Under the pieces are notes generated by a model. It had not been told where the DNA came from and searched no databases. It saw only the letters and a list, made by a program, of their open reading frames with translations. The position numbers were made by a program, and so were the translations under genes. 64,000 nt of DNA from an uncultured Anaerolineae bacterium (GTDB taxonomy: Bacteria > Chloroflexota > Anaerolineae > Aggregatilineales > Phototrophicaceae), in the NCBI GenBank assembly GCA_937922795.1, contig CALAJK010000028.1, forward strand, positions 1 through 64,000. The letters run 5' to 3'. This document shows, piece by piece, positions 33,396 to 37,694 of this stretch. Numbering within the stretch: the first letter of the stretch is position 1; each line of letters begins with the position of its first letter.

Positions 33396-33413
33396 CCTGA
33401 TAGCTTTTGAAAG
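33396..33413 (+). promoter_or_regulatory. TGATAG-type motif upstream of HMG-CoA reductase
   Basis: CCTGATAGCTTTTGAAAG, 24 bp before the reductase ATG, matches CCTGATAGGTTTTGATAG at 37109-37126 before the DUF35 gene at 16 of 18 positions. It may be an operator or promoter element shared by the mevalonate genes. Confidence 0.4.
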
Positions 33414-33437
33414 TTCTCCGCTGCTAAAGTGTGCTGC

Positions 33438-34739
33438 ATGAACGCTCAACATTCCTCTCGCTTACCTGGTTTCTACAAGCGCAGCCTGCCAGAACGCGCC
33501 GCCATCGTGGCGGAGTGGGCTGGCTTGACGCCCGAGGAACAAGCTGTTTTGCTCGGTGTCAGCGGTCTCAACGCCGCCCAGGCTGACCATATGATCGAAA
33601 ATGCCATCGGTGTGTACGGACTGCCGATGGGCATAGCCACCAACTTTCTCATCAACGATCAGGACTATTTAGTCCCGATGGTGATCGAAGAACCTTCGGT
33701 GGTGGCGGCTGTCAGCAATGCCGCCCGGCTGTTCCGCGCCGGCGGCGGCTTCATCACATCGAGCGATGAGCCGCTCATGATCGGACAAATTCAAGTCCTA
33801 GATCTGGCCGATGTTTATGTAGCAGCGGGCGCTGTCATGGCGCAGCGCGATGCGCTGCTGCGCCAGGTGGATGAAATCGGCGGCAGCATCGTCAAACATG
33901 GCGGCGGCGCGCGCGATCTTCAGGTACGCCCAATTCTGGACACGCCGGTCGGCCCCATGTTGATCGTACACCTGATCTATGACACACGCGACGCCATGGG
34001 CGCGAACGCGGTCAACACTGCTGTCGAACATCTCGCGCCGCAGATCGAGACGATCACCGGCGGACGGGTCAATCTGCGCATCCTCAGCAACCTGGCAGAC
34101 CAACGCAAAGCCCGCGCCGAAGGCATGATCCCTGCCGGCGAATTGGCCACCGAGAGGATCACCAGCGAAGACGCGGTACAGGCTATCATCGAAGCCGGCA
34201 TCTTCGCCGAAGTGGATCCCTACCGGGCCACCACCCACAACAAGGGCATTCTAAATGGGATTGACGCCGTCGTCATCGCCACCGGCAACGATTGGCGCGC
34301 CATCGAAGCCGGCGCGCACGCCTATGCTGCCCGTGACGGCCGCTACACCAGCCTGACCCAGTGGTGGAAAGACGAGCAGGGAAACCTGCGCGGCGCGATC
34401 GAGCTGCCGCTGGCGGTGGGCATCGTGGGCGGAGCCACCCGGGTTCACCCGGCGGCGCAGGTGGCGCTGAAGATTTTGGGCGTGCAGTCCGCCCGGCAGC
34501 TCGCCGAAGTGATCGCCGCAGTCGGCCTGGCGCAAAACCTGGCGGCCATGCGAGCGCTGGCCACCGAAGGCATTCAGCGCGGTCATATGCGTATGCACGC
34601 GCGCCAGATCGCCATCGCCGCTGGTGCAAGCGGCGACTTGGTGAACCGGGTCGTGCAGGCCATGATTGAAGACAATACGATTCGCCTGGAGCGCGCCAAA
34701 GAACTGGTGCAACAGTTCAAACGCGCCGGCTCAAACTGA
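33438..34739 (+). CDS. Class II hydroxymethylglutaryl-CoA reductase
   Basis: A 433-residue HMG-CoA reductase of the class II (Pseudomonas mevalonii-like) type, with no membrane segment. It interconverts HMG-CoA and mevalonate. Catalytic residues by family alignment are Glu in VIEEPSVVAA (84/85), Lys in TTHNKGILNGID, Asp in IATGNDWRA and His in GHMRMHARQIA. ENAIGVYGLPMGIA is the substrate loop and DTRDAMGANAVNT lies in the dinucleotide region, which suggests NAD(H) use (inference). Next to HMG-CoA synthase it should act in the biosynthetic direction. The ATG at 33438 is preferred to a GTG three codons earlier; neither has a good ribosome site. It is followed by HMG-CoA synthase after 33 bp. 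Confidence 0.95.
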   Translation: MNAQHSSRLPGFYKRSLPERAAIVAEWAGLTPEEQAVLLGVSGLNAAQADHMIENAIGVYGLPMGIATNFLINDQDYLVPMVIEEPSVVAAVSNAARLFRAGGGFITSSDEPLMIGQIQVLDLADVYVAAGAVMAQRDALLRQVDEIGGSIVKHGGGARDLQVRPILDTPVGPMLIVHLIYDTRDAMGANAVNTAVEHLAPQIETITGGRVNLRILSNLADQRKARAEGMIPAGELATERITSEDAVQAIIEAGIFAEVDPYRATTHNKGILNGIDAVVIATGNDWRAIEAGAHAYAARDGRYTSLTQWWKDEQGNLRGAIELPLAVGIVGGATRVHPAAQVALKILGVQSARQLAEVIAAVGLAQNLAAMRALATEGIQRGHMRMHARQIAIAAGASGDLVNRVVQAMIEDNTIRLERAKELVQQFKRAGSN

Positions 34740-34772: not shown

Positions 34773-35858
34773 ATGACGATGAATGGATTGAATCCTGCTA
34801 ACTACTCCCTTCTGATGCGGCCAGACCGGCAGGTAGGCATCATCGGTTACGGCGCTTACATCCCGCGCTACCGGCTGCCCGGCGCTGAGATCGCCCGCAT
34901 CTGGACGAACGGCCTGGGCGGCTCGCCTGTCAAAGAGAAGGCCGTCGCCGGGCTGGATGAAGACGTGACGACCATGTCGATCGAGGCGGCGCGCAATGCC
35001 CTGGCGCGCGCCGGCATCGACCCGCGTTTGATCAGGGCTGTCTGGGTGGGCAGTGAAAGCCATCCCTACGCCGTCAAACCCACCAGCACGATCGTCGCCG
35101 AGAGCATCGGCGCGTCGCCCAACATCCAGGCTGCCGATTGGGAATTCGCCTGTAAGGCGGGCACCGAAGCCGTGCAGGCTTCCATCGGCTTGGTCGGCAG
35201 CGGCATGGCCGCTTATACCCTCAGCATCGGCATGGACACTGCCCAAGGGCGGCCGGGCGACGCGCTCGAATACACGGCCGCCTCCGGCGGAGCCGCTTAC
35301 ATCATCGGCCCAGCAGATGAGGCCTGCGCCATCTACCAGGGCAGCTACAGCTTCGTCACTGACACACCCGATTTCTGGCGGCGCGCCGATGAAACGTACC
35401 CAAGCCACGGTGACCGCTTCACCGGCGAACCCGCCTACTTCAACCATACGCTGTCCGCGGCCCAGACTCTGATGGACACGATGGGCACGCGCGCTTCGGA
35501 CTACACGTTTGCCGTCTTTCACCAGCCCAATGTGAAATTTCCCTCGCGCGCAGCCGAGATATTGGGGTTCACGCCTGACCAGATCAAGACCGGCCTCCTG
35601 GCCAACGAGATCGGCAATGTCTATTCCGGGTCGTGCATGTTGGGACTGACCGCCATTCTAGACGTGGCCAAGCCCGGCGACCGCATCTTGATGGTCAGCT
35701 ACGGCAGCGGCGCAGGCTCAGACGCCTTCGATATCCTGGTAACAGAGCGCATCACACAAGTTCAAGGGCGCGCGCCCAAAACGCGCGACTACATCAATCG
35801 CCGCACGGTCATTGACTATGCAACCTACTGCCGTTATCGCGGCAAGCTAAAGGACTGA
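34773..35858 (+). CDS. HMG-CoA synthase, archaeal type
   Basis: A 361-residue HMG-CoA synthase of the compact archaeal kind. It condenses acetyl-CoA with acetoacetyl-CoA. The Glu-Cys-His triad can be placed at Glu95 ([11 protein letters not shown]), Cys127 ([10 protein letters not shown]) and His250 ([16 protein letters not shown]); the 32- and 123-residue spacings match the archaeal enzyme as I remember it. [21 protein letters not shown] is the characteristic opening, after about 20 extra residues. GGAGG lies nine bases before the ATG. The thiolase homologue follows after 9 bp. In archaea this protein forms a complex with thiolase and a DUF35 protein that channels acetoacetyl-CoA; both partners are encoded here but look altered, while this enzyme looks intact. 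Confidence 0.95.
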
Positions 35859-35867
35859 GGGCAAACT

Positions 35868-37019
35868 ATGCGCGAAGTGGCCATCGTCGGTATTGGACAG
35901 ACGCCAGTCGGCGAACACTGGGACACCAGCCTGCGCATGCTGGCAGCCGAGGCTGTACGCGCCGCTCTACAAGATGCCGGTGTGAAGACGGCTGACGCTC
36001 TATACGTCGGCTGCGGTTTCAGCGCGCCTTTCAGCAGCCAGCTTCATCTGGGAGCGCTGGTGGCGGATTTCGCTGGTCTGCGAGGAATTGAGGCGTACAG
36101 TGTCGAGGCCGCCGACGCTTCTGGCGGCGCAGCGCTGCGCACGGGTTTCCTGGCAGTGGCCTCCGGAGCCGTTGAGACCGCGCTGGTGCTCGGCGTAGAG
36201 AAAGCCACAGATACTGTGGGCAGCGCCCGCATTCAAGCGCGTAACACCAGCCTCGACGCTGATTTTGAAGCTGCCCACGGCGCTACGCAGTCAGCGCTGG
36301 CCGCCCTGCTCATGCGCCGCTATATGCACGAGTACGGCCTGGAGTTGAGCGCGTTTGAAGGCTTCAGCATCAACGCGCATGCCAACGGCAGCCGCAACCC
36401 AAATGCGATGTTCCGCAACCTGATCAAGCCGGGCAGCTTCGCCCGGGCGCCTATGGTAGCCGATCCGATCAATCTGTTCGACGGCGCGCCCGACGCTGAT
36501 GGAGCGGCCGCCGTCGTGCTGACGACGGTGGAACGCGCCGCCGATATGGTCCCTCAACCCGTGCGGCTCACCGCCAGCGCTGTCGCCACTGACAGCTTGA
36601 CGCTGCATGACCGTCCTGATCTGCTAATTCTGCGCGCCGCCCAGCAGTCAGCCGCGCGCGCTTATGCCCAGGCAGGCATCGAACCTAACGCCGTCAGCTT
36701 GTTCGAACTGCACGATGAATACACTATTCTAGCGGCGCTGTCGCTGGAGGCAGCTGGATTCGCCGAACGCGGCCAGGGCTGGAAGCTGGCGCAGGACGGA
36801 GCCATCGGCTTGCAGGGTTCTATCCCGATCAGCACCTTTGGCGGGTTGAAAGCTCGCGGCAATCCGATCGGCGCAACTGGCATCTACCAGGCGGTGGAGG
36901 CTTGCTTGCAGCTCCGGGGTCAGGCCGGCGACAATCAGGTCAGCGGCGCGCGGACGGCGCTGATCCAGAACTTGGGCGGGCTGGGTGCGACCGCGATCAC
37001 CCATATTCTTCAGGCATAG
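35868..37019 (+). CDS. Archaeal-type thiolase homologue lacking catalytic Cys and His
   Basis: A 383-residue protein collinear with archaeal acetoacetyl-CoA thiolase (SCP2-thiolase-like). The nucleophile motif, expected as VEAACASG, reads VEAADASGG with Asp83. The GHP motif reads GGLKARGNPIGATG with Asn332 instead of His. The C-terminal HNxGG motif reads QNLGG (Gln367). His282 in ELHDEYTI is retained. Fold-defining glycines and loops are intact and there is no frameshift, so it is not an obvious pseudogene. Without the Cys nucleophile, ordinary thiolysis or Claisen condensation should be impossible; a scaffolding, channelling or different catalytic role is inferred. It is tightly coupled to HMG-CoA synthase, 9 bp upstream. 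Confidence 0.85.
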   Translation: MREVAIVGIGQTPVGEHWDTSLRMLAAEAVRAALQDAGVKTADALYVGCGFSAPFSSQLHLGALVADFAGLRGIEAYSVEAADASGGAALRTGFLAVASGAVETALVLGVEKATDTVGSARIQARNTSLDADFEAAHGATQSALAALLMRRYMHEYGLELSAFEGFSINAHANGSRNPNAMFRNLIKPGSFARAPMVADPINLFDGAPDADGAAAVVLTTVERAADMVPQPVRLTASAVATDSLTLHDRPDLLILRAAQQSAARAYAQAGIEPNAVSLFELHDEYTILAALSLEAAGFAERGQGWKLAQDGAIGLQGSIPISTFGGLKARGNPIGATGIYQAVEACLQLRGQAGDNQVSGARTALIQNLGGLGATAITHILQA

Positions 37020-37088
37020 ACCGACCACATGAGTTCAGACTTATGCCGCTTTTAATCGCCCATCAGACAAGCGAAGTTTTGAGAGCCT

Positions 37089-37126
37089 CTGATAGCTCTT
37101 GTGCCGCCCCTGATAGGTTTTGATAG
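37089..37126 (+). promoter_or_regulatory. TGATAG motif cluster upstream of the DUF35 pair
   Basis: Three TGATAG hexamers at 37090, 37111 and 37121, spaced 21 and 10 bp, close to whole helical turns. The second and third form CCTGATAGGTTTTGATAG, nearly the same as the motif before HMG-CoA reductase. They lie 75-110 bp before the DUF35 N-terminal gene in a 180-bp gap. Confidence 0.4.
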
Positions 37127-37199
37127 CGGATTTCCATTACGATGCAGACCAGTTCGTGCAGAAATGCACAACCCAAACCGGAATCGAGGAGTAACGACT

Positions 37200-37376
37200 A
37201 TGCAGATTTCCAGACACTGGCGTTTGAACGCGCAGCGGTATCGTCTTCAGGGTGTGCGGTACGAGAATGGTGAAGTCAGCTTGCAGCCCCGCCCCCAACC
37301 ATCACTCGACGAAATGACGCGAGAATCGCGGTCACAAGCCCTCAAAGCTGAGCCGGCGCTGACCGCCGGGCGCTGA
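37200..37376 (+). CDS. DUF35 N-terminal half, cysteine-free remnant of a zinc ribbon
   Basis: A 58-residue ORF with a strong ribosome site (GAGGAG eight bases upstream). The opening MQISRHWRLNAQRYRLQGV matches the N-terminal helix of DUF35 proteins, which bind the thiolase/HMG-CoA synthase complex. In normal DUF35 proteins a four-Cys zinc ribbon follows; here RYENGEVSLQPRPQPS occupies that place with no Cys. The ORF ends at a TGA that is in frame with the OB-fold ORF; only three codons (Arg-Gly-Arg) separate the TGA from the next ATG. It is either a genuine two-subunit arrangement, a readthrough site or a recent nonsense mutation. The surrounding sequence looks well maintained. Confidence 0.65.
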   Translation: MQISRHWRLNAQRYRLQGVRYENGEVSLQPRPQPSLDEMTRESRSQALKAEPALTAGR

Positions 37377-37385
37377 CGAGGACGT

Positions 37386-37694
37386 ATGAGCGAACTTCGC
37401 AAACAAGTCGAAATTCAGGCTGAGCAGTTCGCCTTCGCCGGCACGGGGGAAGTCTACAGCTTCACCACCGTGCTGCAAGCGCCGGAGAACTTCGAGGAGC
37501 AAGCGCCTTACACGCTGGCGCTCATCAAGCTGGATGAGGGTCCCATGATCACCGCGCAGCTCACAGACCTCGACGGGCCGGTAGCGATTGGCGACCGCGT
37601 GGAAATGGTCACGCGCAAGCTGACGACCGAAGGCCCTCGCGGTATGATCGTGTACGGGTATAAATTCCGCAAAATCCTGCCGCGCTCATCCTGA
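37386..37694 (+). CDS. DUF35 OB-fold protein (acyl-CoA-associated)
   Basis: A 102-residue OB-fold half of a DUF35 protein. GTGEVYSFTTVLQAPENF, QAPYTLALIKLDEGPMITA and the closing GMIVYGYKFRKILP are the family hallmarks. In archaea DUF35 bridges acetoacetyl-CoA thiolase and HMG-CoA synthase. Here it starts at its own ATG with GAGGA a few bases upstream, in the same frame as the preceding 58-residue ORF. Its place after HMG-CoA reductase, HMG-CoA synthase and the thiolase homologue supports the same complex. It is followed by a hairpin and then the convergent pyrophosphatase gene. Confidence 0.85.
   Translation: MSELRKQVEIQAEQFAFAGTGEVYSFTTVLQAPENFEEQAPYTLALIKLDEGPMITAQLTDLDGPVAIGDRVEMVTRKLTTEGPRGMIVYGYKFRKILPRSS

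Follow-up and report, generated by a model that had tools for sequence, protein, structure and literature searches.

A two-gene, zinc-free DUF35 protein beside an altered thiolase in an archaeal-type mevalonate operon of Chloroflexota

In the stretch of DNA analyzed here (64,000 nucleotides, hereafter the window), two adjacent genes, which we call N and OB, encode the two halves of a DUF35 protein. They probably form a two-subunit, zinc-free scaffold within a remodelled archaeal-type thiolase/HMG-CoA-synthase/DUF35 complex, in which the resident thiolase would no longer work as a thiolase. N is an independent gene under selection. Moreover, many species share the split, the missing zinc ligands and the missing thiolase catalytic residues, and the catalytic residues of HMG-CoA synthase are kept. 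In archaea, a small DUF35 protein joins the first two enzymes of isoprenoid synthesis, and the archaeal complex is accounted for by direct hand-over from an active thiolase to HMG-CoA synthase. This ancient enzyme complex appears to have undergone stepwise reconstruction in a group of Chloroflexota; the closest named relatives of the window's genome are Aggregatilineales and Anaerolineae metagenome-assembled genomes. Upstream of N and OB lie genes for HMG-CoA reductase (HMGR), an archaeal-type HMG-CoA synthase and a thiolase homologue, in this order:

33438..34739, + strand: HMGR (PF00368, E 1.8e-113; TIGR00532 over cut-off)
34773..35858, + strand: archaeal-type HMG-CoA synthase with catalytic Glu, Cys and His present (TIGR00748 and NF003274 over cut-off; best PDB match 6ESQ)
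35868..37019, + strand: thiolase homologue with Cys83 replaced by Asp and His332 by Asn (alignment to 7YVY and 6ESQ, conservation, tree)
37200..37376, + strand: N, a 58-residue zinc-free N-terminal part of DUF35 with a WR..RYRL segment, a hairpin and a low-confidence tail (translation, alignment, model)
37386..37694, + strand: OB, the 102-residue OB-fold half of DUF35 (PF01796, OB_ChsH2_C, E 1.6e-19)

Conservation, selection and structure of the split DUF35 genes

Translation of 37200-37694 yields 58 codons, a TGA, three codons and a 102-codon ORF in a single frame, as the initial annotation of this DNA had described, and it also confirms the reported absence of Cys from the N-terminal half. 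Neither N nor OB contains any Cys, so the four-ligand zinc ribbon of DUF35 is lacking, and the two domains of the DUF35 scaffold are not carried on one polypeptide. The OB fold of that scaffold is present (PF01796), and N retains the WR..RY segment that stands ahead of the ribbon, with W7, R8 and Y14 invariant in 45 N sequences. N alone matched no Pfam or NCBIfam model; its relationship to DUF35 N-termini emerged when it was aligned with fused homologues, and a read-through model that matches the DUF35 protein of 6ESQ also shows it. Each half had been credited with its own ribosome-binding site, and such sequences are indeed found (gaggag ahead of 37200 and gagga ahead of 37386). Across loci, a ribosome-binding-like sequence precedes the start of N in 49 of 50 cases (random background, 12%) and that of OB in 32 of 54, the latter count being biased upward by a looser motif and by picking the best of several starts.

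Comparison of the locus in related genomes, a check proposed with the initial annotation, revealed that the split is conserved. The OB protein was identified in 58 of 61 genomes (counting that of the window); where it is missing, in three genomes, there is also no N, archaeal-type HMG-CoA synthase or thiolase of this type. A set of 88 loci with non-identical OB DNA was collected from the 61 genomes and 80 named contigs, which partly cover the same species (loci with identical OB DNA were entered a single time). Fifty of these loci have a separate N plus OB, with no Cys4 motif in any of them, five have a separate Cys4 N plus OB, three a separate Cys4 N plus a complete Cys4 DUF35, 27 a fused Cys4 DUF35 and two a fused zinc-free DUF35; at the last one (L028), N is not nearby. 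When counted by genome (n = 58), 41 carry a separate zinc-free N plus OB, eight a separate Cys4 N plus OB, five a separate Cys4 N plus a complete Cys4 DUF35, two the fused zinc-free form and two no N beside OB. An uninterrupted, Cys-containing DUF35, which had been named as a finding that would speak against the split, was observed in none of the 16 other genomes of the genus.

A separate N gene is present in 56 of the 58 OB-bearing genomes, and in two of them (G017 and G018) it lies away from OB. Profile search recovered N in five of six loci with an N-less OB ORF (L080, L083, L086, L090 and L110) and detected none at L028 or its longer copy L051, whose genome, G018, has five N genes at three places away from its single OB gene, two of these places being tandem pairs. 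The same search placed the single N of G017 on another contig than OB. The median gap between the N stop and the OB start is 10 nt, and 53 of 54 gaps fall within -20 to 70 nt. At L059, the OB frame is open upstream of N, yet the locus belongs to the two-ORF class and not to the fused one.

Both N and OB are under purifying selection. The dN/dS of N is 0 to 0.53 in 10 of 11 close pairs (those with computable dS), with the pair L080/L086 near 0.5, and differences by codon position amount to 70/62/215 for N and 55/39/359 for OB, the pairs not being independent. Cys4 forms of N (e.g., L027 and L186) contain a CxxC...CxxC ribbon. The window group has only a short turn (YENG) in place of its first knuckle and lacks the second. 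The tail of N is poorly conserved, and in L083 and L090 the protein is reduced to little more than WR..RY.L. The read-through model of the pair has a confident OB domain, a hairpin at residues 17-28 and a low-confidence region around the stop (residues 52-70, pLDDT under 50). Among PDB structures, it matches the DUF35 subunit of 6ESQ best (model residues 3-161, 124 residues, Z 13.9, rmsd 3.0), the N part of the model leaning on fused homologues because these were in its alignment; N modelled alone gave a poor result (mean pLDDT 63, pTM 0.22). According to the available text of PMC6996347, zinc was bound at equivalent positions in every DUF35 structure known at that time. The intermediates among our loci point to a likely order of events, in which the Cys4 N domain would have been duplicated as a separate ORF, the N domain would then have been lost from the OB protein, and the zinc ligands would have disappeared last.

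The resident thiolase homologue and the mevalonate pathway

The thiolase had already been noted as altered, and the alteration is real. It shows full-length homology to acetoacetyl-CoA thiolase (7YVY, E 2e-109; 6ESQ, E 2e-68), and alignment to both structures places Asp83 at the nucleophilic Cys and Asn332 at the His of the GHP motif, which we take to be a functional residue of acetoacetyl-CoA thiolase. Among the 92 operon-type sequences in the tree, residues 83/332 are Cys/His in eight, Cys/Asn in one, Asp/Asn in 53, Glu/Asn in 20 and other combinations in ten (three of 118 sequences were too short and were dropped beforehand); His has also been lost nearly always. A single change from Cys to non-Cys is required by this tree, which was built by a quick method with SH-aLRT support only and took in eight of 23 intact paralogues. 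L107 (Cys/Asn) and the Gly forms split off early within the altered group, with modest support, as if His had been lost first and Gly had been an intermediate step. Position 83 is acidic in all 47 split-group sequences despite at least 13 interchanges between Asp and Glu, which is not as expected from drift. In addition, eight columns of the altered thiolase are fixed unlike those of active homologues, and R125, E164 and F324 are newly fixed residues. In the sorting of loci by DUF35 arrangement, 13 of 92 rows had a thiolase but no OB in the stretch examined, some of them ending at a contig edge and others having OB on another contig.

The window's genome (G000) encodes three canonical thiolases whose motifs are intact, as well as an intact homologue of the operon thiolase, and canonical thiolase was over cut-off in 38 of 41 genomes. 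Since the only OB gene of this genome is that of the window, the intact homologue (contig C35) has no DUF35 beside it; it is a lone gene at G000:C35:17298-18452, divergent from a UvrA-like ORF (name by eye). All 58 OB genomes possess a thiolase-fold homologue, which is altered only in 31, of both kinds in 18 and intact only in nine, the 18 including three that rest on fragments: G002 (position 83 past the contig end), G017 (a 78-residue fragment with only Asn332 visible) and G047 (broken frames). In L179, L184, L186 and L030, HMG-CoA synthase is followed by N/OB with no thiolase in between; those genomes have the intact thiolase at another place.

The HMG-CoA synthase of the window is supported by the equivalog models as well as by its catalytic Glu, Cys and His, which are kept in 83 of 86 loci, the remaining three being cut before Glu and Cys. 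For HMGR, the ATG at 33438 looks a likelier start than the GTG at 33429. Dxr was found in none of 31 genomes, and mevalonate kinase was over cut-off in 28 of the 31; none was over cut-off in the window's genome (85% complete). Three genomes (G022, G029 and G033; completeness 74-93%) have no archaeal-type HMG-CoA synthase, no TIGR01835 match over cut-off and no IspH, and their weak HMG-CoA synthase matches were rejected as FabH-like by sequence (name by eye).

A shared promoter box

Further examination of the intergenic regions revealed the following candidate regulatory features:

33398..33413, + strand: box TGATAGCTTTTGAAAG before HMGR, with TAAAGT (-10-like) 11 nt further, at 33425-33430
37080..37126, + strand: array of TGATAG/TGAGAG boxes with a full box, TGATAGGTTTTGATAG, at 37111-37126 (sequence, box counts)
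37138..37143, + strand: -10-like TACGAT, 11 nt after the box (read by eye from the sequence)
37153..37171, + strand: inverted repeat TTCGTGCA-GAAA-TGCACAA, downstream of the -10-like site and upstream of N

The array occupies part of the 180 nt interval between the thiolase and N. Upstream of 60 N genes (9825 nt), TGATAG occurs 107 times versus 3.45 expected from mononucleotide shuffling. The composite TGAKAGNTTTTGAKAG, with at most one mismatch, has four sites in the window's genome. Three of them precede N, HMGR and the intact thiolase; the fourth (G000:C11:4575) falls within an ORF of the opposite strand and was discarded as chance. The direct-repeat form of the box, TGATAG-N-TTTTGATAG, is seen at 33398-33413 (HMGR), 37111-37126 (N/OB) and G000:C35:17227-17242 (intact thiolase), and by eye a TANNNT hexamer follows 11 nt after the box at each of the three. 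Because the -10-like TAAAGT ends 7 nt before the likely start ATG, the HMGR mRNA may be leaderless.

With at most one mismatch, the box is present in 46 of 74 HMGR upstream regions versus a background of 0.95%. When two mismatches are allowed (background 1.5%), it precedes HMGR in 58 of 74 cases, the intact thiolase in 19 of 24 and the split zinc-free N in 49 of 50, and it is rare before HMG-CoA synthase (4 of 93) and the operon-type thiolase (5 of 119); the upstream regions in these counts were not de-duplicated, and the background is somewhat too high because it was drawn from the same loci. The box common to HMGR, N/OB and the intact thiolase suggests one candidate mevalonate regulon. Among fused-zinc operons, the box stands before DUF35 in 13 of 18 with an altered thiolase versus none of nine keeping Cys (p 0.0006, a guide only because the loci are related). 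It thus seems that DUF35 acquired its own promoter around the time the thiolase lost its Cys. The inverted repeat at 37153-37171, possibly an operator or a leader hairpin, has related repeats in 33 of 50 split loci versus 3.7% of random windows; a similar repeat precedes the intact thiolase.

A candidate remodelled complex and competing explanations

In the complex that we consider probable, N would bind the OB subunit non-covalently, and the two would hold the thiolase-fold subunit against HMG-CoA synthase. The resident thiolase-fold protein would be kept for a structural or CoA-site role without condensing acetyl-CoA, and acetoacetyl-CoA would be supplied by an intact thiolase encoded elsewhere. 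Such a partner may be required by the complex, perhaps for the CoA site shared by both enzymes in the archaeal complex, as described in the available text of PMC12329534. The initial annotation had suggested that the whole complex has been remodelled: the conserved split, the lost zinc ligands and the changes in both scaffold and thiolase speak for this part, whereas its idea of one gene interrupted by TGA did not hold.

That idea, which covers a recent nonsense mutation, a sequencing error or programmed readthrough to a 164-residue product, draws on the halves of the window being co-framed and only TGA plus three codons apart. However, N and OB are in different frames in 39 of 55 two-ORF loci; because only 16 of the 55 are in frame (p 0.57 versus 1/3), the in-frame TGA of the window is a coincidence. 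The N stops in these loci are mixed (TAG 24, TAA 20, TGA 11), N stands apart from OB in G018 and G017, the ribosome-binding sequence is conserved at N, and the stop region is a low-confidence boundary in the model. Frame relations, mixed stops, codon selection and detached N genes exclude readthrough as a general state, and we give a single interrupted gene almost no credence. N could instead be a decaying remnant beside an OB half that functions alone, given its lost ligands, its poorly conserved tail and the minimal forms at L083 and L090. This is very unlikely, since codon selection, the ribosome-binding sequence and the promoter box, the latter two each found at 49 of 50 loci, all disfavour it, and the extra N copies of G018 keep the conserved segment.

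A serious rival, albeit a doubtful one, is that the altered thiolase performs new chemistry at its Asp/Glu-Asn site and is served by N/OB, which would then not be a scaffold for acetoacetyl-CoA use. The acid held through at least 13 Asp/Glu changes and the eight differently fixed columns favour this, and thiolase relatives turned aldolases, with DUF35 partners, offer a precedent (available text of PMC12329534); on the other side, HMGR is encoded in the operon together with an HMG-CoA synthase whose catalytic residues are in place, and nine of the 58 OB genomes have only the intact homologue. N might also be a separately regulated adaptor choosing whether the altered or the intact thiolase-fold protein docks on HMG-CoA synthase. 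The box that N/OB share with the intact thiolase, its distribution in fused-zinc operons (none of nine keeping Cys versus 13 of 18 without it) and the five N copies of G018 are in line with such a role, but 31 of 58 genomes have the altered thiolase only, leaving nothing to choose between, and we consider it rather improbable. The preferred two-subunit scaffold has its own difficulties: five N genes versus one OB gene in G018 fit poorly with a fixed 1:1 subunit, and the acid kept at position 83 together with R125, E164 and F324 argues against a purely passive thiolase. The poor model of N alone, the dN/dS of N near 0.5 in L080/L086 and the incompletely visible pathway of the window's genome also count against it. 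A less likely, tentative variant would have N/OB recruit interchangeable thiolase-fold partners to HMG-CoA synthase, with N separately promoted and sometimes multiplied; one partner would be an ex-thiolase with a novel role for its Asp/Glu-Asn site, for instance to bind acetoacetyl-CoA, to gate it or to produce it through a different reaction.

Like the archaeal complex, the locus combines homologues of HMG-CoA synthase, thiolase and DUF35, the last with a fold match of Z 13.9 (judged here from genes and a model); unlike it, DUF35 consists of two zinc-free pieces and the thiolase Cys and His are replaced. ChsH2 with Ltp2, Shy with Sal, PhlB and BbsA are likewise scaffolds with a zinc ribbon and an OB fold, and all are among the fold matches of the read-through model. 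In contrast to N/OB, those scaffolds of other thiolase-fold enzymes that have been solved carry their zinc within a single DUF35 domain, the ligands being Cys3His1 in Shy (available texts of PMC6996347 and PMC12329534). Both Ltp2 and Sal are related to thiolases but have altered active sites (PMC12329534, as far as its text is available), in which other residues are replaced than in the operon thiolase. Within the same phylum and pathway type, an alternative mevalonate pathway is known in Roseiflexus (PMC3857490), and a report on Promineifilum is cited in PMC13001223; the available parts of these two accounts describe neither a split DUF35 nor an altered thiolase. A literature search by title and abstract returned no work on split or zinc-free DUF35 or on an inactive mevalonate thiolase in Chloroflexota. 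Each part is a member of a known family, and as far as that search goes, the two-gene zinc-free scaffold with its altered thiolase is a new variation on them. Here a partner that lost its catalytic residues has long been retained and the scaffold divided into two pieces, and every step is represented by intermediates in living lineages. It thereby becomes testable whether the thiolase-fold partner of HMG-CoA synthase is needed for the CoA site and not for passing on the intermediate, and how the fold of a scaffold outlasts the loss of its metal and covalent link.

A minor observation concerns the surroundings of the stand-alone N genes of G018 (L249:5581-5948, L250:4763-4909 and L251:1139-1449). 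One N pair adjoins a divergent pair of ACP-synthase-III-like and acyl-CoA-ligase-like genes, and the others lie near protein kinase and P450 genes.
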